Of a stretch of DNA of 64,000 bases, positions 12,715 through 42,389 are shown piece by piece (position 1 is the stretch's first letter; every line of letters begins with the position of its first letter). The stretch is from Gemmatimonadaceae bacterium (GTDB lineage Bacteria > Gemmatimonadota > Gemmatimonadetes > Gemmatimonadales > Gemmatimonadaceae). A program made the position numbers and the translations under genes. The stretch is taken from assembly GCA_035606695.1 (NCBI GenBank), contig DATNEW010000041.1, positions 124,001 through 188,000 on the forward strand, read 5' to 3'. Below the pieces are notes generated by a model. That model was not told the DNA's origin. It was given only the letters and a program-made list of their open reading frames with translations, and made no database searches.

Positions 12715-14442
12715 CTAATTCGGCGGAATGGCGGCTTTCGCGAGATCGAGCTCGCGCCGCGCCTGAGGCACGAGCGCGCTGCCCCCGTAGGTGAGAATCA
12801 AATGCTCGAGGTGCGCGGCGGCGCCGGACGCGTCGCCGGCGCGGCGCAGCGTTCGCGCCCACTCGAGCTCGGCCTGCGGTGCCTCCGGAGAGTCGTTCTC
12901 GGTGTCGAGAATGCGCTTCCACAGCGCGATGGCGTCAGCGTCGTTGCCGCGCCGCGACTGAATCTGCGCGGCGCTGAGAAGCAGGAGCGAGCGAACGACG
13001 GGCGTTTTGTCGGCGGCGTCCACGAACTGGGCGGCCGCCGCGGTGCTATCGCTTCGCGCGAGCGCGAGGAACGCCTTGCCGATCGCCGGGGCCGTGTCCG
13101 CCTTGATGCGCGCGATGAGCGCAAGCGCCATCGCAAGCTCGGGTGAGCTCTCGGTGCCGCCGCGCAGCAGCACACGGGCCGTTTTCAGATTCCCTTCATA
13201 CAACGCGAGCCAACCCGCCGCGTCGCTCGAGTCGCCCTCGGCTCCCGTCGCCGCCAAGGCGGCGCGCGCGCGATTCATGTCGCCGGTGCGCACCCAGCCC
13301 CAGGCAATCGTGCGAATCAGCGAGTTGTGCGCGCCGGGCGAGATGAAGCGATCATACGCCGCCACCATGCGCTCCGCTTCCGCCGGCCGGCCGAGCGACG
13401 ACAGCGCGCGGGCATAGAGCGGCACGTAGGATTTGGCGATGAGCGCCGAGTCACCGTTGGCATCCGCCAGCGGTGCGAGCCGGAGCGCGGCCGCCGCGTC
13501 GCCGCCATTGAGCGCGGCCGTACCGGCGCGCAACGCAACGTCCGGCGTGTGCTTCCAGCGCAATGCCGCCTCGAGCGCCTCGCGGGCGAGCGTCCAGCGC
13601 TCCTCCGATTCGGCGCGCTTGGCGAACTCCGACCACGCATCGGCCGCGGCGCTGTCGGGCGGAATGGACTTGAGCGCATTCCAGCCGTCGCTCGCCGATC
13701 CCCAACTGGTCTCGAGATCCGCCAGCGCGCGTCGCGAGGAGACTTCGATCGGCAACGAAAGAAAGATCTCCCGCACCTGCGGTCGCGACGACATCGGCGT
13801 CGGCGCGAGCGCGTATGCCGCGGCCTGCTCGAGGTAGTCCGCCTTGATGAGCGCCTGGCGCCATGCCTGCGCCGATTCGACCCACTGCCCCTGCGCGGCG
13901 CGCGCTTGAGCAACCTCTAATTGCAGATCTTTAGTCGATCCAAGCGTCATGTTCGCGCGCGCGAGCACGCTGTCGGCGGCCGCGGAGCGGTTGCGCTGCA
14001 GCAGCAAGTCGGCGTACTCGCGGTACGGCGACGGACTGTCCGGCACGTCGTGCACCCACTTGTCGAACGCCGCGCGCAAGGCGGCCTCGCGGCCGAGCGA
14101 TTGCAGCGTGCGCAGCTGTACGGTGCGATACGTCTCTTCGTGCGGGTTGGACGCGATCAACGTATCGAGCGTGGCGACGAGCGAGTCGGACTGGCCGATC
14201 TCGGCGAGCACTCGTTCCAGACCGAGGAGCGCGTTGACGCTGGCGGGCGTATGCAGCGCGACGCGAAAGAGCGGCGCCGCCTCCTTGTACTTGCCGGCGG
14301 CCTCGAGATCGAGGGCCTTGTAGAAGGCCATCGTGTCGGCGGGCGCTTGCGCGGCGATGGTCGGTGGGCGGCGGGCGATGGGCGCAATGCCGATGGCGAC
14401 CATGAGAAGCGAGCGCCGAACGCGCGCGGCGTTCACGCCCAT
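12715..14442 (-). CDS. exported tetratricopeptide-repeat protein
   Basis: 575 residues. An N-terminal signal peptide (RVRR, then SLLMVAIGIAPIA, cleavage near IAAQ) precedes many alanine-rich helix pairs typical of TPR repeats (EAAGKYKEAAPLFRVAL near the N-terminus, QSRRGNDADAIALWKRIL and LRRAGDASGAAAHLEHLIL near the C-terminus). TPR proteins scaffold protein complexes; partners are probably the DUF4175/DUF4159 membrane proteins encoded just upstream. The ATG lies inside the G-rich arm of a heptamer repeat element, and the C-rich arm encodes signal-peptide residues 21-32 (PIARRPPTIAAQ). The start is therefore uncertain: Met14 is an alternative, but it would leave no basic n-region. Confidence 0.8.
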   Translation of the reverse strand: MGVNAARVRRSLLMVAIGIAPIARRPPTIAAQAPADTMAFYKALDLEAAGKYKEAAPLFRVALHTPASVNALLGLERVLAEIGQSDSLVATLDTLIASNPHEETYRTVQLRTLQSLGREAALRAAFDKWVHDVPDSPSPYREYADLLLQRNRSAAADSVLARANMTLGSTKDLQLEVAQARAAQGQWVESAQAWRQALIKADYLEQAAAYALAPTPMSSRPQVREIFLSLPIEVSSRRALADLETSWGSASDGWNALKSIPPDSAAADAWSEFAKRAESEERWTLAREALEAALRWKHTPDVALRAGTAALNGGDAAAALRLAPLADANGDSALIAKSYVPLYARALSSLGRPAEAERMVAAYDRFISPGAHNSLIRTIAWGWVRTGDMNRARAALAATGAEGDSSDAAGWLALYEGNLKTARVLLRGGTESSPELAMALALIARIKADTAPAIGKAFLALARSDSTAAAAQFVDAADKTPVVRSLLLLSAAQIQSRRGNDADAIALWKRILDTENDSPEAPQAELEWARTLRRAGDASGAAAHLEHLILTYGGSALVPQARRELDLAKAAIPPN

Positions 14443-14466
14443 CGCCCAGCGCCCATCGCCCAGCGC
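14347..14466 (-). repeat. heptamer (GCGNTGG)n hairpin element, copy A
   Basis: Read on the minus strand, the DUF4175 stop codon TAG is followed at once by GCGCTGG GCGATGG and a second GCGCTGG GCGATGG pair (14434-14466). About 50 bases later comes a complementary C-rich arm (14347-14383) built of CCCATCG/CCCACCG-like heptamers. The C-rich arm lies within the TPR gene and is translated as part of its signal peptide. Confidence 0.85.
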
Positions 14467-17400
14467 CTACGGCGTCCCAGCATTGATCTTCTTAAAGTAC
14501 TCTAATATCGCGCGCCGCTCGTCCGCGCTCAGACCGCGCAGCTCGTCCCACGTGGGCTCGCGGAACTTCGTGGCGGCGCGGCCGCTGGCGTTCGTGTTGT
14601 CGGGCTTGAGCTCATTGCCGCCCTTGGCGGACGTCGCCTCGCGCTTCTTGTCGTCGTCGCGTTCATCCTTCTGCAGCGACCGGCCGGCATCGAGCAAGCG
14701 GCGGAACAACTGCTGTTGTCTCGCGATCGTCGTCGCGTCGAGGCGGCCGCCCTCGAGCGCTTCGGCGAGCTGCTTTGCTTCCTTCGCGAGCTGCGCGGCG
14801 CGATCGCCGCCGACGCCTTCACCCAGTTCATCGAGTTGCTGCGAGACCTGACGCTGTTCGCGGGCGAGCGCCCGCGCGGTCGCTTGCATCTGCGACGACA
14901 TCGGCTGGCCCATGCCGGGCATGAGTCCCTGGGCCTGCGCGTTGATCGAGCCCTGCTTCTTCGCCATCTCCTGCAATTGCTGCATCATCTCGGCGAAGCC
15001 GGTCGCGGAGCTCGAGGTGTTGGCCTTTTCGCGATCGCGCGCAAGCGACGCCGCGGCGCGATTCAACGCGTCGGCCGCGTCGCTCATCGCGCTCGCGGCT
15101 TGCTGGCCACTGCGCGAGTCGGCGGTGGATTGCATCGCCTCGGACACCTTCTGTTGCGCTTCGCTCACCGAGCGTTGCGAGCGACCGGATAGCAACGACG
15201 TTTTCTGGCCTTCCTGCTGAAGCTTCTGCGCCGAGTTGTCGAGTCCTTGCTTTACCGCGCTCTGTTCGCCGCGCAGCTCTTCGGGCTTCGCCTGGCCGGA
15301 GCGCGCCTTCTGCTCGAGCTGCTGCTCTTGCCGTGCCATCTGAAGCATTTCCTGCACGGCTTGATCGAGCGCGTTAGTGAGCTCGGACTTCCATTCGTTG
15401 ACTTGTGACTCGCGCGCATCCTTCATGGCTTGCGATGCGCGGTCCATTTGGGAGGCAGCGTCGCGTGCGTTTTGTTCGACGCCTTGCTGGCCTTGCTGGC
15501 CTTGCTGGCCTTGCTGGCTTTGCTGTCCCTTCGCGTTCTGTTGTTGGCCGTTCTGTTGTTGACCGCTTTGTTGCTGGCCGTTCTGTTGTTGGCCGTTCTG
15601 TTGTTGACCGTTTTGCTGCTGCCCTGATTGTTGCTGTCCGCTCTGCGGCTTGGCATTCTGGGGCTTGCCGGTCTGCTGCTGATTGCCGGCTGCTTGCTGT
15701 TGCTTCGGATCCTTCCCGCTCGAGCGCAGCGCTTCCTCGGCGGCATCGGCGTGCTTCTGTGCTTCCTTCGCGCCCGAGGCCCCCGCATCGGCCTTGTCCT
15801 TCTCCAGGCGATCCTGAAGCTTCTTCACTTCGTCGGAGAAGCGTTGCGACCGATCCGCGAGATTCTTCGCATCCGACTTCTGCTCGTCGCTCGGCTTCGC
15901 CGATGCCGAGTCGGCGAGCTTGCGATCGTGGTCGGCGATGTCCTTCGCTTCGTCCTTGAGCGTCTGCATCGACCCTTCGAGCGCGGCACGCTTGAGCATC
16001 TCCGCGCTCTTCTCGAGCTGCTCGCGAAGCTTCTCCTGCATCGCCTGCAGGTCCTTGAGCGATTGCTGCGATTGGTCGCGCGAAAGCTGTTGCGTCGCGT
16101 TGTCGAGTTTCTGCATCTGCGCCAACAATTCCGGCGACAATGCGTCGCGGAGGAGCGCCTGCGCTTCCTGGAGCTGGCGCGCCAGGCTGCTGTCGAGAGC
16201 GCCCGCCTGCTTGAGCTGATCCTCGAGCGCTTTGGCGGTTTGCTGCAGCTGCTTCACCTGATCGGCCAGCGCGCGCTGATCCTTCGCCACGGCTTTCGCC
16301 TTCTCGGCGGCGTCGTAGCTCATGTTGCCTTTCTGATCGCCGGCACCGCTCGCATTGCTCGGCATGTCGTTCGGGCTGCGCTGCGCGCGATCGCGCGCGG
16401 CATCGCTCGTCCGCTGCTCGAGCGACTTCTCCGCGGCGGCGGCCGAACGCGCCTGACTGACGGCCGAATCCATCGCGTCGCGCGCGATGGCGCGGCGCTC
16501 TTCCATCGTGGGAATCTTGAGCAGCAGCTCGCGGCTCTCGCCGCGCTGCGCCCAGGGCGAGTTGTCGACGGCGACGATCTTGACGTGCAAGGCGTCGCCT
16601 GGCTTGAGGGCGCGCGGCGCGAGATCGAGGATTGCCGTGCCATCCCACACGTTCGTCAGCGCATCGGCGATGCGCTGAGTGATCGCCGTCTGCTGGCCAC
16701 CGGTGCTTCCCTGCTTCCAGCTCATGATTTCCACGCGCGCGAGGCCGTGATCGTCCGAGGCGGTCGCGCGCAACGGAATGCGATCGTCGCCCGCGACGAG
16801 CGTGTCGGTCGCCGGAGAAACCAGCTCGACTTTCGGCGCCGAATCCGGCACGACCTCGAGGTCGATCGGTTGCGGCACGTCGGCGATCGGGCCCGACGCG
16901 CCGGTCGCGAGCCACGCATACTTCCCGCTCTTCGTCGGTTGCATGCGCCCGGCGAACGAATGGTCGTTCACGCGCAGCGCGACCGTGTCGCTACCGTTGC
17001 CCAGTCGAACGTCGCGCAGCGCGGTCGATGCGCGACCGCTGATGTCGATGACGGTTCCCTGTGGTACGCGCACCGCATCGCCGACGGCAAGCGCCTCGGC
17101 GGCGCGACCGAGATACGCCGGATAGACTGCGCGCATCTGCACCGCGCCAACGAACGGGCGGTCCGTAACCCGTACGACCGCGGTGTCGCTTCCCGACCGT
17201 CCGTCACTCGCGACGATCGTCAGGTCGCCGCGCAGTGGACCAACCTCGGCCACGCCAAGTCCGTTGCGATCGACCGCCACGGACTGCGTCACCCACGCTT
17301 CGCCGGGAATGCGCTGCGTCAGCGTCACGCTGCCGCGATGCGGCGCCGCGATTTGGAGTCGAACCGACTCACCACGCAACACGGCGGGCGGCAAGTTCTG

Positions 17401-17964
17401 GAACGCGATGCGCGGGAGCAGCGTCCCATCCCACGCGCTCACTGGACGCATGATCGCCAGCACGCCGTCGTTGAAATTCGGGACGACGAACGCCAGCGCC
17501 GCCACCGCGACCGTCGCCGCTCCCGACGCGCGCACGAAGCCGCGCCGCACGCCACGCTGCTCACCCGGCGCCAGGCGTGATCGCACCGGCGCGAGCTGTT
17601 CGCCCAGCCGCGTGGCCGCACGCCGTCCCAACGTGCCGCTGTCCGCCACTTCGAGCGCGCCGCGCAGCGCGCCGGCGCGCAACGACTGCTCGCGCTCGAT
17701 CGCGGCGGCGACGTTCTGCCGCGTCGTACGGCGCTGGAGCTGCCGCGCCGTCCACACGATCACCGCCGCATCGGCGGCGATGAGCAGCACCCACACCAGG
17801 AACGGCACCAAGCGCGGCAACGACATCCAGCGCGCGCCGCCGAGCACCGACGCGCCGAGCGCGAGTACGAGCGCCGTCGCCCCGACGGCCAGCGCCAGGC
17901 CGACGAGGACGTGCATGCGCCGCAGCCGCGCGCGTTCAGAATCTACTAATTCAAGAATACTCAT
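14467..17964 (-). CDS. DUF4175-family membrane protein with coiled coils and Gln-rich tract
   Basis: 1165 residues. After MSILELVDSERARLRR come two membrane helices (about 20-45 and 55-80) and a third near 155-175. A large extracytoplasmic region with beta-rich segments follows (PAYLGRAAEAL, VELVSPATDTLVAGDD), then a long alanine/glutamine-rich coiled coil (about 520-1100) interrupted by a Gln/Gly/Asn tract. The layout matches DUF4175 proteins found beside DUF4159 and MoxR/BatA-type clusters. Molecular role unproven, probably cell-envelope associated. Start ATG 17964 overlaps the DUF4159 stop by 4 bases (ATGA), so the two are coupled. An upstream in-frame extension is rejected because it overlaps the DUF4159 gene. 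Confidence 0.85.
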   Translation of the reverse strand: MSILELVDSERARLRRMHVLVGLALAVGATALVLALGASVLGGARWMSLPRLVPFLVWVLLIAADAAVIVWTARQLQRRTTRQNVAAAIEREQSLRAGALRGALEVADSGTLGRRAATRLGEQLAPVRSRLAPGEQRGVRRGFVRASGAATVAVAALAFVVPNFNDGVLAIMRPVSAWDGTLLPRIAFQNLPPAVLRGESVRLQIAAPHRGSVTLTQRIPGEAWVTQSVAVDRNGLGVAEVGPLRGDLTIVASDGRSGSDTAVVRVTDRPFVGAVQMRAVYPAYLGRAAEALAVGDAVRVPQGTVIDISGRASTALRDVRLGNGSDTVALRVNDHSFAGRMQPTKSGKYAWLATGASGPIADVPQPIDLEVVPDSAPKVELVSPATDTLVAGDDRIPLRATASDDHGLARVEIMSWKQGSTGGQQTAITQRIADALTNVWDGTAILDLAPRALKPGDALHVKIVAVDNSPWAQRGESRELLLKIPTMEERRAIARDAMDSAVSQARSAAAAEKSLEQRTSDAARDRAQRSPNDMPSNASGAGDQKGNMSYDAAEKAKAVAKDQRALADQVKQLQQTAKALEDQLKQAGALDSSLARQLQEAQALLRDALSPELLAQMQKLDNATQQLSRDQSQQSLKDLQAMQEKLREQLEKSAEMLKRAALEGSMQTLKDEAKDIADHDRKLADSASAKPSDEQKSDAKNLADRSQRFSDEVKKLQDRLEKDKADAGASGAKEAQKHADAAEEALRSSGKDPKQQQAAGNQQQTGKPQNAKPQSGQQQSGQQQNGQQQNGQQQNGQQQSGQQQNGQQQNAKGQQSQQGQQGQQGQQGVEQNARDAASQMDRASQAMKDARESQVNEWKSELTNALDQAVQEMLQMARQEQQLEQKARSGQAKPEELRGEQSAVKQGLDNSAQKLQQEGQKTSLLSGRSQRSVSEAQQKVSEAMQSTADSRSGQQAASAMSDAADALNRAAASLARDREKANTSSSATGFAEMMQQLQEMAKKQGSINAQAQGLMPGMGQPMSSQMQATARALAREQRQVSQQLDELGEGVGGDRAAQLAKEAKQLAEALEGGRLDATTIARQQQLFRRLLDAGRSLQKDERDDDKKREATSAKGGNELKPDNTNASGRAATKFREPTWDELRGLSADERRAILEYFKKINAGTP
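15480..15660 (-). repeat. low-complexity Gln/Gly/Asn-coding repeat inside the DUF4175 gene
   Basis: Imperfect tandem units of 15-21 bases (variants of CAACAGAACGGC on the minus strand, and a 9-bp CAAGGCCAG unit at one end) encode QQQNGQQQSG- and QGQQGQQGQ-type sequence. The reading frame stays open. It is likely a flexible linker prone to length change. Confidence 0.8.
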
Positions 17965-18662
17965 GGCGTCGGCCGGCTGGTCACCGCGTACACGAACAGG
18001 TTCACGCCCATCCGCAGCGCCGCTTCGTGCAGCGCCGGTGGATCGTGATAGACCTCGGGATCCTCCCACCCGTTGCCGAGGTCGCTCGAGAAGCTGTAGT
18101 ACACCGCGAGACGGTCGCCCAGGAAAATCCCGAACCCGCGGGCCGGCAGGCCGTCATGCTCGTGGATCTTCGGAATCCCCTTCGGGAAGTCGTACACGAT
18201 GTGATAAATCGGATGCGACAGCGGCACGTCGACCAGTGGACGATCGGGAAACACGCGCTTGATCTCGCGCCGAAAGCTCGAGTCGATGCCGTAGTTGTCG
18301 TCCACGTGCAGAAAACCGCCGCGCTGGAGATACTCGCGCAGGCGCACGACTTCCGCATCGCTGAACTTGATGTTGCCGTGACCCGTCGCGTGAATGAACG
18401 GGTAATCCCACAGCTTGTCGTCCATCAACGTGACGCGCGCTTCGGTCTTGTCCACCTGCAGCGACGTGCGCTGACGAATGGCGGCGAGCAGGTTGGGAAG
18501 GCTCGACGGATTGGCGTACCAATCGCCGCCGCCGTCGTACTGCAGCCGCGCGATGGTGAGCACGGGCGGCAGCCGGACCGCCGGGCGCGCGCCGACGAGC
18601 GGCAGCAACGCCAGCGCCAACACCGCACGCACACGCGCACCCATGCGACTCAGGGCCATCAT
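17961..18662 (-). CDS. DUF4159 domain protein, exported
   Basis: 233 residues. A basic n-region and hydrophobic segment (VRAVLALALLPLVGARP) form a signal peptide. The domain shows QYDGGGDWYANPSSLPNLL, then FIHATGHGNIKFSD, LREYLQRGGFLHVDDNYG and YHIVYDFPKGIPKIHEHDG, which are DUF4159 hallmarks. This fold is GATase/ThuA-like; its biochemical role is unknown. The start is ATG at 18662 or the adjacent ATG at 18659, both overlapping the rsmI stop. The next gene (DUF4175) overlaps by ATGA. The pair is common in envelope-related clusters. Confidence 0.85.
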   Translation of the reverse strand: MMALSRMGARVRAVLALALLPLVGARPAVRLPPVLTIARLQYDGGGDWYANPSSLPNLLAAIRQRTSLQVDKTEARVTLMDDKLWDYPFIHATGHGNIKFSDAEVVRLREYLQRGGFLHVDDNYGIDSSFRREIKRVFPDRPLVDVPLSHPIYHIVYDFPKGIPKIHEHDGLPARGFGIFLGDRLAVYYSFSSDLGNGWEDPEVYHDPPALHEAALRMGVNLFVYAVTSRPTP

Positions 18663-20538: not shown

Positions 20539-20578
20539 GGCCGTAAGATGGCGATGGGCGCCGACGCGCGGAAGCTTT

Positions 20579-20694
20579 CGCGATGGGCGATGGGGGATGG
20601 GCGATGGGCGTGGAATTCAAAGGGCGACGGATTTTTCTCCGTCGCCCTTTGCCGTTCCGCCCAACGCCCAACGCCCAACGCCCATCGTCCATCG
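20579..20694 (-). repeat. heptamer (GCGNTGG)n hairpin element, copy B, with inner hairpin
   Basis: On the minus strand the trxA stop is followed directly by CGATGGACGATGGGCGTTGG and further GCGTTGG units (20658-20694). The complementary C-rich arm lies at 20579-20613. Between them sits a separate 13-bp perfect hairpin (AAAGGGCGACGGA with TCCGTCGCCCTTT, 20618-20650). The whole could fold as one long stem with an inner stem. Confidence 0.88.
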
Positions 20695-21173: not shown

Positions 21174-21611
21174 ATGGAAAAGCCCCACAATTCCAACAGT
21201 TCGGCCGCGTCAGGACCGCGCGGCACCACGATCGCGCACATCGGCATTGCCGTGCGCGGCCTGACCGATGGAGTTGCGTTCTATCGCGACATTTTGGGAA
21301 TGCCCCGGGTCCCGCTCGACGATTCGGACGGCGCGCGCATCGCCGGGCTCGCCGCGGGTGCGTCGCTCGTCGAGCTGCTCGAGCCCGAGACCGACGAGTC
21401 GCCGATTGGAAAGTTCGTCGCGAAGCGCGGCCCGGGAATCCATCACGTGTGCTTCGCGGTCGACGACCTCGACGGCACCCTTGCGCGATGCAAAGCCGCG
21501 GGCGTGCGCTTGATCGACGAGACGCCGCGGCGCGGCGCTGACGGCAAGCGGATCGCCTTCGTCCATCCGGCAGCGACGGGTGGCGTGCTGGTCGAGCTGA
21601 CCGAGTATTGA
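21174..21611 (+). CDS. mce: methylmalonyl-CoA epimerase (glyoxalase/VOC family)
   Basis: Interconverts the (S) and (R) epimers of methylmalonyl-CoA, in propionate or branched-chain degradation. 145 residues with the diagnostic motifs HIGIAVRGL, PIGKFVAKRGPGIHHVCF, VRLIDETPRRGADGKRIAF and HPAATGGVLVELTEY. Metal ligands His22 (HIG), His in IHHVCF and Glu in VELTE are conserved. No mutase genes are in the window. The ATG at 21174 lies within an AT-rich divergent region. Its 3' end runs into a small 11-bp tandem repeat. Confidence 0.93.
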   Translation: MEKPHNSNSSAASGPRGTTIAHIGIAVRGLTDGVAFYRDILGMPRVPLDDSDGARIAGLAAGASLVELLEPETDESPIGKFVAKRGPGIHHVCFAVDDLDGTLARCKAAGVRLIDETPRRGADGKRIAFVHPAATGGVLVELTEY

Positions 21612-21650
21612 GCGAGTATTGAGCGAGTAGTGAGCGAGTATTGAGCGAGG
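21603..21650. repeat. 11-bp tandem repeat at the end of the epimerase gene
   Basis: Four copies of GAGTATTGAGC (one with AGT for ATT) start inside the last codons of the epimerase gene and run into the intergenic space. The TGA stop is part of the repeat unit, so every copy would offer a stop. Confidence 0.85.
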
Positions 21651-26630: not shown

Positions 26631-26713
26631 CATTGCGCTGGGCGCTGGGCGTTGAGCGATGGGCGTTGCACGGCGCTCCGAACCACGCCCAACGCCCAGC
26701 GCCCAGCGCAATG
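26631..26713 (+). repeat. heptamer (GCGNTGG)n hairpin element, copy C, perfect 24-bp inverted repeat
   Basis: The 24 bases at 26631-26654 (beginning CATTGCGCTGG) are an exact reverse complement of 26690-26713, with a 35-nt loop that contains two further GCGNTGG-type units. It lies between tRNA-Gln and prs. As RNA the stem would be extremely stable and could separate or protect the tRNA transcript. Confidence 0.95.
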
Positions 26714-28569: not shown

Positions 28570-28660
28570 CCGGGCGCTGGGCGATGATCGCCACGCGATT
28601 TCGAGCGCTTCTGTCCGCGCTCTTCACTCGCCCAACGCCCAGCGCCGAACGCCCATCGCC
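28570..28660 (+). repeat. heptamer (GCGNTGG)n hairpin element, copy D
   Basis: Starting ten bases after the rplY stop, the G-rich arm GCCGGGCGCTGGGCGATG (28570-28587) is followed about 40 bases later by the C-rich arm CGCCCAACGCCCAGCG and further CCGAACG/CCCATCG units (28629-28660). The arms share an 11-base perfect complement (GGCGCTGGGCG region). The C-rich arm touches the pth start codon, so it occupies the place of a Shine-Dalgarno motif. Confidence 0.82.
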
Positions 28661-28661
28661 A

Positions 28662-29237
28662 ATGAAAGTCATCGTCGGCCTGGGCAATCCGGGCAAGGAA
28701 TACGAGCGCACGCGACACAACGTCGGCTGGTGGGTGGTCGACCACCTCGCCGACGTTTGGCGTTTCGACGGATGGAAGAAGGACGGCGAAGCGCGCGTCG
28801 CGAACGGCACGCTCGGGAACGTGAAGGTGCGGCTGGTGAAGCCGCAGACCTACATGAATCTGAGCGGGCAGGCGCTGCGCCCCTATGCGCGGCGGCCGTT
28901 CTGGTCGGCGGCGACCGATCTGATCGTCGTCGTCGACGAAGTGCAGCTCCCGATCGGACGCTTTCGCTTTCGCGCGAAAGGAAGCGCCGGCGGGCACAAC
29001 GGCCTCAAAAGCATCGAACATCATCTCGAAACGCAGGATTACTCGCGCCTGCGCATTGGCGTGGGGCCCGAGGAAGGCCGTGAGCGCGGCGCCATTCTCA
29101 GTGACTACGTGCTCGGCGACTTCGGCAAGCACGACGCCGAGGTGGTGCGGAATCTCCTGCCCGAGCTGACCGAGGCGCTGGAGGTGTGGGCGAAGGACGG
29201 TATCACGCCGGTGATGAACCGATTTCCCGGTCATTAG
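28662..29237 (+). CDS. pth: peptidyl-tRNA hydrolase
   Basis: Releases tRNA from prematurely dropped peptidyl-tRNA. 191 residues. MKVIVGLGNPGKEYERTRHN gives the N-terminal signature with His19/Asn20; KPQTYMNLSG and GSAGGHNGLKSIE are conserved. The start ATG 28662 is set by the family; an in-frame extension to 28584 would translate the C-rich repeat arm. No Shine-Dalgarno is possible because the repeat abuts the ATG. Confidence 0.96.
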   Translation: MKVIVGLGNPGKEYERTRHNVGWWVVDHLADVWRFDGWKKDGEARVANGTLGNVKVRLVKPQTYMNLSGQALRPYARRPFWSAATDLIVVVDEVQLPIGRFRFRAKGSAGGHNGLKSIEHHLETQDYSRLRIGVGPEEGRERGAILSDYVLGDFGKHDAEVVRNLLPELTEALEVWAKDGITPVMNRFPGH

Positions 29238-38913: not shown

Positions 38914-39270
38914 ATGACATCGACTCCAACGACCAACTCGCTGGCACTCGCGCAGCGCGCGGCTCAGATCGCGATCGACAACAAGGCGCAGGACGTGGTG
39001 CTGCTCGATCTGCGCGGCGTCACCGACATGACGGACTTCTTCATCATAGCCAGCGGCACGTCGGACACGGCGACCCGATCCATTGGTGAGCACGTGTTGG
39101 AGGAGATGAAGAAGGAAGGGTCGCCCGCGCATCACATCGAAGGGTTGGAAAAGGGCCGGTGGGTGCTGCTCGACTTCGTTGATTTCGTGGTGCACGTGTT
39201 CCATCCGACCTTGCGCAACTTCTATCAGCTCGAGCGGCTGTGGGCCGACGCGGAACAGATTCCGATCTAG
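38914..39270 (+). CDS. rsfS: ribosome silencing factor RsfS (Iojap family)
   Basis: Binds L14 and blocks subunit joining when nutrients are scarce. 118 residues; AAQIAIDNKAQDVVLLDLRG, TDFFIIASGTSDT-type signature (MTDFFIIASGTSD), GWVLLDF-like GRWVLLDFVDFVVHVF and FYQLERLW are conserved. The stop TAG is followed without a gap by heptamer element E. Confidence 0.95.
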   Translation: MTSTPTTNSLALAQRAAQIAIDNKAQDVVLLDLRGVTDMTDFFIIASGTSDTATRSIGEHVLEEMKKEGSPAHHIEGLEKGRWVLLDFVDFVVHVFHPTLRNFYQLERLWADAEQIPI

Positions 39271-42200
39271 GCGTTGGGCGTTGGGCGCAGGGCGCTGGGC
39301 GGATCGTCTCGGCCAGCGTCTGGCGAGCAGTGCTCATCGGCATACTGGTTTTGCCCATCGCCCAGCGCCCATCGGCCATCGCGGCCCAGAATTACTTCGG
39401 CCAGAATCAAGTCCAGTACGACACGTTTCATTGGCAGATTCTCGAGACCGAACACTTTCAGATTTACTACTATCCGGATGAGGCGCGCGCAGTCAACGAC
39501 GCGGCGCGTCTCGCCGAGCGCGCGTACGCGCGCCTGTCGCGCGTGCTGGACCATCAGTTTCGCGAGAAGAAACCGATCATGCTCTTCTCGTCGCGCACCG
39601 ATTTCGGGCAGAACAACGTCACCGGCGATCTCGGCGAGGCCACGAGTGGAGTGACCGAGGCCATGCGCCATCGCATGCTCCTCAACTTCACCGGCGACTA
39701 CAAGAGCTTCGAGCACGTGCTCACGCACGAGATGGTGCACGCATTCCAATACGACATCTTCGCGCACGGCAAGGCGGGCAACGGGCTGCAGGCGCTCGCG
39801 CAGTACATGCCGCCGCTCTGGTTCGCCGAGGGGATGGCGGAGTATCTGTCGCTCGGTCCGAACAGCACGGTGACGACGTCGTGGATGAGGGACGCGGCGC
39901 TCAACGGCCGCATTCCGACGATCAAGGAGCTGACCGACGATCCGGACAAGTACTTCCCGTATCGCTACGGCCACTCGCTCTGGACGTTCATCGGCCAGAA
40001 ATGGGGCGACGAGGTCATCGGCCAGATCATGAGCTCCGTGCCGGCGGTCGGAGTCGAGCGCGCGTTCCGGCGCGAGCTCGGCATCACGCTCGAGGATCTT
40101 GGCGAAGAATGGCGCGAAGACGTGCAGACACGCTTGTTGCCCGCAGTGGCGACGCTCGACCGGCCGCGCAAGTTCGCGCAGCCGCTGTTGAACAAGGAGC
40201 GGAGCGGCGGCGACGTGTTTCTGGCGCCGACGCTCTCGAGCGATGGACGCACGATCGCGTTCCTGTCGAACGGCAGCGTGCGGCGCGGCGAAATATTCAT
40301 CGATCTGTGGCTGGCCGATGGCGAGAACGGCCAGCGCCAGGGCCGGCTGGTCAAGAGCACGTTCAGTCGCGACTTCGAGGAGCTGCGGCTGCTCTACGCG
40401 CAGAGCGCGTTTTCGCCGGACGGCCGTTACCTCGCCTTCACGGCGCAACAGCGCGGCCGCGACGTGCTGTACATCTTCGACGTCGCGTCGCGGAAGGAAG
40501 TGCGCCGCCTCGACAAGCTGGGGCTGGAGTCGGCGACGAGCCCGAGCTGGTCGCCGGACGGAAAGCAGCTCGTCTTCAGCGGCAATCACGGCGGAATTAC
40601 AGATCTTTATATAGTAAATACTAATGGCACGGGGCTGCGCAAGCTCACCGACGACCGATTCGGCGAGCTGCAGCCCCAGTGGTCGCCGGACGGCCGCACG
40701 ATCGCGTTCGCGACGGACCGCGACAGCGCCAACCTCGCCCTGCTCCGCTTCAAGCCCTGGCGCATCGCGCTGCTCGACCTTGCCTCCGGAATCGTCAGCG
40801 TGCTCCCCGGGCAGAGCGGCCTCAATCTCAATCCGCAGTGGGCGCCCGACGGCAAGTCGATCGCGTACGTGTCCGACCGATCCGGCTCGCCGAACATCTT
40901 CCTGTACGACCTCCCGACGCACGAGCACTTCCAGCTCACGAACGTCGTCGGCGCCGTCTCGGCGCTGACCGAGTACAGTCCGGCGATCACGTGGGCGAGG
41001 CAGGCCGACCGTCTCGCCTTCACGTACTTCGATGACGGCGAATACACCATCTGGAGCGTCAACAACCCGCGCGCGCTGAAGCGCCTGCCGTACCAGGATC
41101 GGCCGGCGACCGTCGTGCAGACCGGAAGCGACAGCGCGTCCAAGGCCGTGTCGATCGTCGCGCTGCTCGATTCGTTCAGCCTCGGTCTTCCCGACACGAC
41201 CAGGTTCCGCACCGCGCCGTATCACGTGCGCTTCCAACCCGACTTCTCGGCGCGGCCGAGTATCGCGTATTCACCGGATGCGTTCGGCCGGACGATCTTC
41301 GGCGGCACAACGCTCGTGATGAGCGACATGCTCGGCAACAACCATCTGGCGATCGCCGGGGAGATCAACGGGCGCATGAGCGAGGCGCGCGCGTTCCTTG
41401 GCTACACGAACATCGCGCATCGCTGGCAATTCTCCACCGGCTTGTCGCAGACTCCCTACTACTTCCTGTCGTCCGACTCGCTCTCGAGCACCGGTGCGAC
41501 CGGCCGCTCGCTCGAGAATCAGCAGATCACGACGTACGTCGCGCGCCAGGCGTTCGGCGTCACCGCGTACCCGATCGACCGATTCACCCGCATCGAGTTC
41601 GGCGCGGGATTCAACAACATCGATCGCAGCCGGTTGTTCGTCACGCGAAACCTCGTCGGTGGAACGGCGGCGACGGGCTATTCCGTCGACAGCACGCATC
41701 GCGATCCCTCGCTCAACTACATCGACGGGCAGATCGCGCTCGTCTCCGACAACACGCTCTTCGGCTACACGGGACCAGTGATGGGCCGACGCTTTCGCGT
41801 GCAGCTCACGCCGGTCGCGGGCACGTATCAATGGAAGGAATACCTCGTCGACTATCGCCGATACGATCCCGTCATCTTCAACTATCTGACGATCGCGTCG
41901 CGCCTCTACACCGACCTGTCGATCGGGCGAGACGAGGAAGCGTTTCCGAAGTACATCGCGCGGCCGGATTTCGTGCGCGGATACGATCGCAACAGCACCT
42001 TCTATCTCGCGTGCCCGGTGATCGGCGCCAATCCCACCAATTGCAGCGCGGTCCAATTGCTTGGCAGCCGAGTCGCCGTGGCGAACGTCGAGGCGCGCTT
42101 TCCCCTCGTTCGGCGCCTCGAGCTCGGCTTTCTGCCGTTCGACTTACCGCCCGTGGATGGCCTGTTTTTCTACGACGCGGGCCTCGCCTGGTCGGCTGGC

Positions 42201-42389
42201 CAGACCGTCTACGGCTCTCGGCCCGAGGGCTATGACGTGAACACGCAGCGGTACCCGCTCCGCAGCTACGGCGCGGGGATTCGGGTCAACCTCTTCAATT
42301 ACGCCATCCTGCGCTGGGATTACGCCGTCCCCGTCGATCAGCAGGGGCACAAGGGCGTCTGGACCTGGTCGCTCTGGCCGTCGTTCTGA
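39240..42389 (+). CDS. exported peptidase MA-like / TolB propeller / beta-barrel protein
   Basis: Up to 1049 residues. After a signal peptide (AVLIGILVLPIAQRPSAIAAQ, residues 30-50) comes a gluzincin-like peptidase domain with HEMVH (His163-His167) and WFAEGMAEYL (Glu197/Glu201) for zinc. Residues about 310-640 form a PD40 beta-propeller (WSPDGKQLVFSG, WSPDGRTIAFATD, WAPDGKSIAYVSD). The last 400 residues look like an outer-membrane barrel (LRSYGAGIRVNLF, terminal aromatic LWPSF). The start is uncertain: GTG 39240 overlaps rsfS by 31 bases, GTG 39330 would leave almost no n-region. Both arms of heptamer element E are inside the reading frame from 39240. Role unknown; possibly surface proteolysis. 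Confidence 0.82.
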   Translation: MGRRGTDSDLGVGRWAQGAGRIVSASVWRAVLIGILVLPIAQRPSAIAAQNYFGQNQVQYDTFHWQILETEHFQIYYYPDEARAVNDAARLAERAYARLSRVLDHQFREKKPIMLFSSRTDFGQNNVTGDLGEATSGVTEAMRHRMLLNFTGDYKSFEHVLTHEMVHAFQYDIFAHGKAGNGLQALAQYMPPLWFAEGMAEYLSLGPNSTVTTSWMRDAALNGRIPTIKELTDDPDKYFPYRYGHSLWTFIGQKWGDEVIGQIMSSVPAVGVERAFRRELGITLEDLGEEWREDVQTRLLPAVATLDRPRKFAQPLLNKERSGGDVFLAPTLSSDGRTIAFLSNGSVRRGEIFIDLWLADGENGQRQGRLVKSTFSRDFEELRLLYAQSAFSPDGRYLAFTAQQRGRDVLYIFDVASRKEVRRLDKLGLESATSPSWSPDGKQLVFSGNHGGITDLYIVNTNGTGLRKLTDDRFGELQPQWSPDGRTIAFATDRDSANLALLRFKPWRIALLDLASGIVSVLPGQSGLNLNPQWAPDGKSIAYVSDRSGSPNIFLYDLPTHEHFQLTNVVGAVSALTEYSPAITWARQADRLAFTYFDDGEYTIWSVNNPRALKRLPYQDRPATVVQTGSDSASKAVSIVALLDSFSLGLPDTTRFRTAPYHVRFQPDFSARPSIAYSPDAFGRTIFGGTTLVMSDMLGNNHLAIAGEINGRMSEARAFLGYTNIAHRWQFSTGLSQTPYYFLSSDSLSSTGATGRSLENQQITTYVARQAFGVTAYPIDRFTRIEFGAGFNNIDRSRLFVTRNLVGGTAATGYSVDSTHRDPSLNYIDGQIALVSDNTLFGYTGPVMGRRFRVQLTPVAGTYQWKEYLVDYRRYDPVIFNYLTIASRLYTDLSIGRDEEAFPKYIARPDFVRGYDRNSTFYLACPVIGANPTNCSAVQLLGSRVAVANVEARFPLVRRLELGFLPFDLPPVDGLFFYDAGLAWSAGQTVYGSRPEGYDVNTQRYPLRSYGAGIRVNLFNYAILRWDYAVPVDQQGHKGVWTWSLWPSF
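39271..39387 (+). repeat. heptamer (GCGNTGG)n hairpin element, copy E
   Basis: GCGTTGG GCGTTGG GCGCAGG GCGCTGG (39271-39298) starts at the base after the rsfS stop. After about 50 bases the C-rich arm CCCATCG CCCAGCG and further CCCATCG/GCCATCG units (39354-39381) follows. The C-rich arm encodes residues 39-50 of the peptidase/propeller protein. Confidence 0.88.

Follow-up and report, generated by a model that had tools for sequence, protein, structure and literature searches.

A lineage-specific heptamer repeat at the start codon and apparent signal-peptide end of a TPR protein gene in Gemmatimonadaceae

Introduction

The start of a TPR protein gene in a Gemmatimonadaceae genome raises the question of whether an intergenic repeat can become the beginning of an exported protein, as the first-pass annotation of this locus proposed. 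The gene lies in the window, by which we mean the whole 64,000-nt stretch of DNA that was analysed. We refer to the genome of the window as G000 and to its congeners as G001-G005. The features of the junction between the TPR gene and the gene upstream of it are as follows.

12715..14442, minus strand: TPR protein gene, 575 aa, with an apparent signal peptide; Pfam TPR_19 (7.5e-7) and TPR_14
14347..14352, minus strand: A31-Q32, non-repeat; matches the A-Q kept at the signal-peptide end in most orthologues
14353..14384, minus strand: C-rich arm (gene sense), the inverted partner; translated as residues 20-30, APIARRPPTIA (codon map)
14385..14435, minus strand: loop between the arms; encodes the hydrophobic core and the greater part of the n-region (NAARVRRSLLMVAIGI)
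14433..14483, minus strand: mini-ORF from an old-type ATG, in a different frame from that of the TPR protein (MLGRRRRWAMGAGRWA, then stop)
14434..14436, minus strand: alternative GTG start at the edge of the G-rich arm, overlapping the TGA of the mini-ORF (GTGA)
14436..14467, minus strand: G-rich arm in the gene sense, an array of GGGCGHT heptamers that begins with the final base of the upstream stop and takes in the TPR start codon
14440..14442, minus strand: called ATG of the TPR gene, within the G-rich arm
14467..18069, minus strand: upstream gene, a 1200-aa ORF with its stop TAG at 14469-14467

Results

Arms, loop, and start codons at the TPR junction

The two arms (14353-14384 and 14436-14467) are 32 nt each and 84% complementary, with 51 nt between them. 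For the upstream gene, the coding model favours a start near 17916. The codon map places the ATG of the TPR gene (14442-14440) inside the G-rich arm, in agreement with the first-pass annotation, which had also read the C-rich arm as residues 21-32: the arm is indeed translated, but as residues 20-30, and A31-Q32 lie outside it. The repeat thus contributes the start codon and 11 of the 32 residues, but neither the A-Q site nor the hydrophobic core (SLLMVAIGIA), which is inside the loop and outside the repeat. The loop itself is non-repeat and resembles the core that the orthologues have of their own. The arrays lie on either side of a native hydrophobic core, and repeat sequence makes up the start codon and most of the end of the signal peptide.

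The old ATG (14483) survives in G000 out of frame (offset 41 nt), and its reading frame ends after 16 codons; the TPR protein therefore needs a new start, either within the G-rich arm or at its edge. Viewed against the Sec pattern of a charged n-region, a hydrophobic core, and small residues ahead of the cleavage site, the TPR N-terminus has a hydropathy of 2.88 over nine residues, with Arg before them. The signal peptide, its export, and its cleavage, judged by eye and from hydropathy, are all apparent. An RR within the end of a signal peptide is unusual, so the TPR peptide may export poorly.

The GGGCGHT family in the window and the genome

With at most one mismatch allowed, the window contains 25 copies of GGGCGATGGGCG where 2.2 are expected, a number that none of 100 shuffles reached, and the exact 12-mer occurs 141 times in the genome, against one occurrence of the reversed pattern. 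The three-unit GGGCGHT pattern has 147 matches in G000, six in G002, five in G055, two in G024, and one in G006; the remaining 54 of the 59 genomes searched have none. Among 13 lag-7 segments in a 524-kb sample, 12 are GGGCGHT-like. A GC-rich genome in a draft assembly of 50 contigs could invite chance resemblance or an assembly artefact; against this stand the counts above, the size of the arrays (just 20-40 nt), and the congeners' having families of their own, and we consider such an origin next to impossible.

Elements in G000 were placed with a home-made coding model trained on 237 long ORFs, in which starts are uncertain and stops firm. We found 106 clusters (84 + 22). All 26 that have both arm types run G then C (26/26); the remainder are mostly single-armed, and three are C-C. 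We then considered the 84 arms of at least 19 nt that have a gene boundary no more than 400 nt away. On the outer side, the nearest boundary is a stop for 38 of these (35 of them within -10 to +20 nt, median +4) and a start for 46 (20 of them within -10 to +20 nt); for comparison, inner arm edges are flush with a gene boundary in 16 of 84. The first repeat unit is often fused to the stop codon, as TAGCGHT or TAGGCGHT, and TAG is found at 27 of 44 array-side stops in G000 versus 108 of 433 stops in the sample (P = 1.7e-6). GGGCGHT has no stop codon in any frame of either arm; the G-arm supplies ATG or GTG and Arg codons, and the C-arm supplies Pro, Ala, Gln, and Ser codons. Further elements in the window, with loci of a second family found elsewhere in the genome, are listed here.

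20549..20694, no strand assigned: intergenic GGGCGHT element whose spacer holds a terminator-like hairpin
26632..26712, no strand assigned: GGGCGHT element directly after a putative tRNA 3' end (by eye)
28572..28661, plus strand: GGGCGHT element separating two genes, its C-arm directly abutting the ATG of 28662-29237
39269..39384, plus strand: second element with the same layout as that of the TPR junction, its C-arm falling within the apparent signal peptide that gene 39330-42389 encodes
Octamer family loci: L079 12826-12935; L077 7985-8102; L140 10886-10968 and 12061-12182; L068 13806-18507

At 20549-20694 the heptamer arms stand on both sides of the terminator-like hairpin (AAAGGGCGACGGATTTTTCTCCGTCGCCCTTT), as if filling its flanks. 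At L104 3029-3128, a complete G-then-C element sits in frame midway through a gene of 1165 codons, in an apparent linker. The second family of G000 has octamer units (GGGCGTAT, GGGCGTCG, GGGCGTGT), which in several places run from a G-rich to a C-rich arm. The window also contains tandem repeats with periods of 10 (ACACCCGGCG) and 11 (TGAGCGAGTAT), at 2441-2504 and 21598-21649. We rejected as examples runs of 12-14 nt within genes, which resemble ordinary coding sequence (window 21939, L063, L064, L076, L092 1112, L119, L123, and L133 5661).

Could each element have inserted as a unit, a mobile element of MITE or REP type with its own spacer? The copies are dispersed and species-specific, and their arms are inverted, as this would predict. 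However, the spacers are unrelated by eye and have native functional content (hydrophobic cores, the terminator-like hairpin), and we regard unit insertion as very unlikely. The REP-type Y1_Tnp (RAYT-type) transposase domain, PF01797, was not found in G000 (0/1); the same search was positive in five of 14 controls.

TPR orthologues and the same junction in relatives

The TPR gene has a match in 53 of the 59 genomes searched. We compared the N-termini of 28 loci, including the window's own, out of 30 (L035 and L037 were excluded, their match beginning inside the protein). The start of the mature protein is conserved (ADTMAFYKALDLEAAGKY in the congeners), and the signal peptides vary. PIARRP occurs only in the window's own protein among the 28 N-termini. 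In this alignment, which the first-pass annotation had suggested, relatives without the array keep the mature protein and carry a different signal peptide, which supports its proposal that an intergenic repeat became the start of an exported protein. The case that it had named as refuting, a PIARRP...IAAQ sequence without a nearby repeat, is absent from the five congeners G001-G005 and from the other orthologue starts compared.

Several relatives have no array, and their ATG overlaps the upstream stop: L012 (G004), L017 (G006), L019 (G032), L023 (G025), L027 (G016), and L028 (G010). Four loci (L010, L011, L012, and L013) keep the old-type ATG in frame, with extra sequence after the stop in L010, L011, and L013. 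We compared the post-stop stretch with the signal-peptide end at 20 junctions, with 200 shuffles each. An inverted repeat is present in G000 and G005 (0/200 shuffles each), G002 and G003 (2/200 each), and G024 (6/200), with motifs that differ among these genomes, and no such repeat was found at the other 15 of the 20 junctions; the G023 junction, which was anchored wrongly (5 of 15 residues), is given no weight. Seven-base periodicity at the TPR junction is reached by 0 of 200 shuffles in G000, G002, G005, and G030. G001 and G014 have other inserted sequence there, without a significant inverted repeat.

In the congener G005 the same junction is occupied by an unrelated heptamer, TGGAGAG, in the same architecture, and its C-arm reads LLHSPLSTLHALQAQ. 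Matches to GTGGAGAGTGGAGAGTGG number 45 in G005, two in G024, and 0 in the other 57 of the 59 genomes. The 15 G005 loci examined contain 17 TGGAGAG clusters, of which 11 run G to C, none C to G, and six are single-armed. The motif has no GGG tract, and its layout is that of GGGCGHT. We also considered whether the junctions common to G000 and G005 indicate replacement of one motif by another in place, and set this argument aside as too weak: three of 17 junctions are common, one of them the TPR junction by selection, and excluding it leaves two of 16 (P = 0.025, with 70 per 4500 junctions taken as a rough background). Other members of the Gemmatimonadaceae have further heptamers: TGATGGC (with an inverted partner), CATCTCC, AGGCATC, and TTGCGCC (L052 2271-2357; L060 1903-9777).

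The hairpin might instead have been selected as a regulatory RNA or DNA device, by burying the start codon, stabilizing the mRNA, or forming a G-quadruplex, with the change in the signal peptide as a by-product. The strict G-then-C order is consistent with this, as is the predicted mRNA fold, in which both arms are paired over the AUG (-86.1 kcal/mol, with a modest z of -2.2). On the other hand, the G005 elements share the layout without a GGG tract, several TPR-junction orthologues have no array at all, and the genes adjoining elements are presumably of all kinds, as judged from their N-termini. Exactly four GGG tracts are found in 47 of 89 runs, which were picked with GGG seeds; this count would fit a quadruplex requirement such as that described by Rehm et al. 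(2015; PMC4692102). We set aside the G-quadruplex as a general cause, given the G005 motif, and regard a regulatory device as rather unlikely to be the primary explanation.

Other genes with repeat-coded signal-peptide ends

The C-arms of G000 lie inside the starts of exported-type proteins in the TPR gene, gene 39330, L084, L085, L117, L128, and L188/L211. Gene 39330 (plus strand) has the layout of the TPR gene, with VLIGILVLPIAQRPSAIAAQ followed by NYFG, and no good start codon with a charged n-region. Protein identities beyond the TPR Pfam matches are those that we presume from the look of the sequence.

Within the genus, orthologues of gene 39330 (four) and of L128 (four) lack the arm-coded residues, a clean result in both cases. 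L085 is also clean against five loci that are 55%-68% identical, for which orthology is less sure, and L188/L211 is clean, compared within the L085 set. L084 is mixed (three orthologues): AQR is common to its relatives, and the 35-nt array is not. L117 fails this comparison with five relatives, in which AQR stands at the same place, and its run is only 14 nt; we dropped it as an example because its relatives share AQR. L185, the G005 relative of L085, has TGGAGAG-type arms and STLHSPLSS at its signal-peptide end. In the L128 orthologue of G001 (L199), an octamer-like repeat (AGTCGCCG) codes for the signal-peptide end.

These comparisons bear on the possibility that the signal peptide came first, a native A-Q-R/P cleavage-site sequence (GCCCAGCGC) having seeded the repeat or merely resembling it, with no co-option. 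The relatives of L117, and in part those of L084, carry AQR without an array, as expected under such an origin. However, the native A-Q of the TPR protein is outside the arm, its PIARRP has no counterpart in any other orthologue compared, and arm-coded residues are missing from the relatives of 39330, L085, L128, and L188/L211. In addition, an inverted array beyond the core matches the C-arm (0/200 shuffles). We consider an origin from the signal peptide very unlikely.

C-arms are also found in the N-terminal tails of cytosolic-type proteins (L099, L101, L110, L121, L134, L210, L212, and L214), some of whose starts may be miscalled, and in apparent linkers (L089, L094, L099 4710, L100, and L104). 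Across the old and new sets, the C-arm is inside coding sequence in eight of 11 genes with a signal-like N-terminus versus nine of 41 others (P = 0.003) at a hydropathy threshold of 1.7, which was set after the first threshold, 1.9, had given P = 0.08. At 1.7, the old set gives P = 0.014, and the new set alone, two of two versus two of seven (P = 0.17), is too small. One protein had been misclassified, and we take it to be DNA polymerase I-like by the look of its sequence. After its reclassification P = 0.009, and with L117 dropped as well the counts are six of nine versus 10 of 42 (P = 0.02). C-arms therefore likely enter coding sequence more often at signal-like N-termini, a tendency that is unproven.

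Discussion

We think it probable that the junction separating the TPR gene from its upstream neighbour came to be occupied by a lineage-specific heptamer element, made up of a G-rich array followed by an inverted C-rich one. We read the repeat as filling unconstrained DNA around genes and as tolerated where the protein sequence is free: at signal-peptide ends, in N-terminal tails, and in linkers.

Arrays of this kind would grow by slippage on 7-nt units, with one arm also serving as template for the other, or else by taking up copies from other loci. Growth would halt at sequence that selection protects: on one flank the stop codon, on the other either a start codon or the earliest conserved residue. 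Array edges would be flush with genes for this reason. Signal peptides, N-terminal tails, and inter-domain linkers would yield because nearly any suitable stop-free stretch is acceptable there, with compositions of Gly/Arg/Trp/Ala from the G-arm and Pro/Ala/Gln/Ser/His/Arg from the C-arm. Pairing of the arms in the mRNA would bury the TPR start codon, and translation of the gene would therefore rely on ribosomes coming from the gene before it; whatever role the hairpin may have is in our account an inference only.

A broader reading is tentative, and we hold it as a possibility with less than even chances: that Gemmatimonadaceae have lineage-specific heptamer "dialects" of shared architecture, and that at the same junctions between genes the motif of one lineage gives way in place to that of the next. 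Each replacement would rewrite a signal peptide's n- and c-regions and leave the conserved hydrophobic core between them, so that arm, loop, and arm map onto n-, h-, and c-regions. If true, new start codons and signal-peptide ends would arise repeatedly from the repeat. Apart from this broader reading, the case is replicated, sister species serve it as natural controls, and it illustrates how the fastest-evolving part of exported proteins can be rebuilt from intergenic repeat DNA.

Comparison with known repeat systems

In the open-licence PMC literature we found no report of such repeats in Gemmatimonadetes or of repeat-derived signal peptides. Several known systems share parts of the architecture. 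Rickettsia palindromic elements are likewise intergenic palindromic repeats also found in frame within genes (reviewed in PMC10969869). They differ in being ~150 bp long, in encoding a conserved peptide, and in inserting as units, whereas in the GGGCGHT elements the arms alone repeat and the loop is native. Sequence conserved across the whole element, interior included, a feature of MITEs and of these palindromic elements, is absent here: the spacers are unrelated and native by eye. The TAACTGA heptamers of Beggiatoaceae (PMC4679880) also lie beside start codons, but they are direct repeats with one inverted case and are not G-rich, and "signal peptide" has 0 occurrences there. In the mitochondrial coding palindromes of Nematomorpha, as in the TPR gene, both arms of an inverted repeat are translated; those arms are long, perfect, and in conserved protein regions (PMC6649704), whereas the GGGCGHT arms avoid conserved protein sequence.

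The closest likeness is to the heptameric G-rich repeats of Rehm et al. (2015; PMC4692102), GGGAATC in Xanthomonas and GGGGA(C/T)T in Nostoc. There, the G-strand is found just past stops and the C-strand just ahead of starts, two Xanthomonas genomes have 70 and 75 convergent inverted pairs, and 7%-11% of Xanthomonas copies are intragenic. Both PMC4692102 and PMC4679880 cite polymerase slippage as a hypothesis for how heptamer arrays grow. GGGCGHT shares with the repeats of Xanthomonas and Nostoc a 7-nt tandem unit with a mode of four units, genome-wide dispersal, convergent inverted pairs, and the placing of the G-strand after stops and the C-strand before starts. It also shares their quadruplex potential, at least three Gs per unit with a preference for four units, a combination that the TGGAGAG family of G005 lacks. 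The existence of this motif without GGG argues that the shared features are period seven, inverted order, and a position at gene edges, rather than the quadruplex alone.

The differences lie in the motif and the phylum, in a separate heptamer for each lineage (one without GGG), in the fusion of arrays to TAG stops, and in the entry of arms into signal peptides; the term "signal peptide" occurs 0 times in PMC4692102. A heptamer hairpin of the Xanthomonas and Nostoc type is thus present in another phylum with other motifs, one of them without GGG tracts, and what is new relative to Rehm et al. (2015) is this phylum, its lineage-specific motifs, the fusion to TAG, and the entry into signal peptides.
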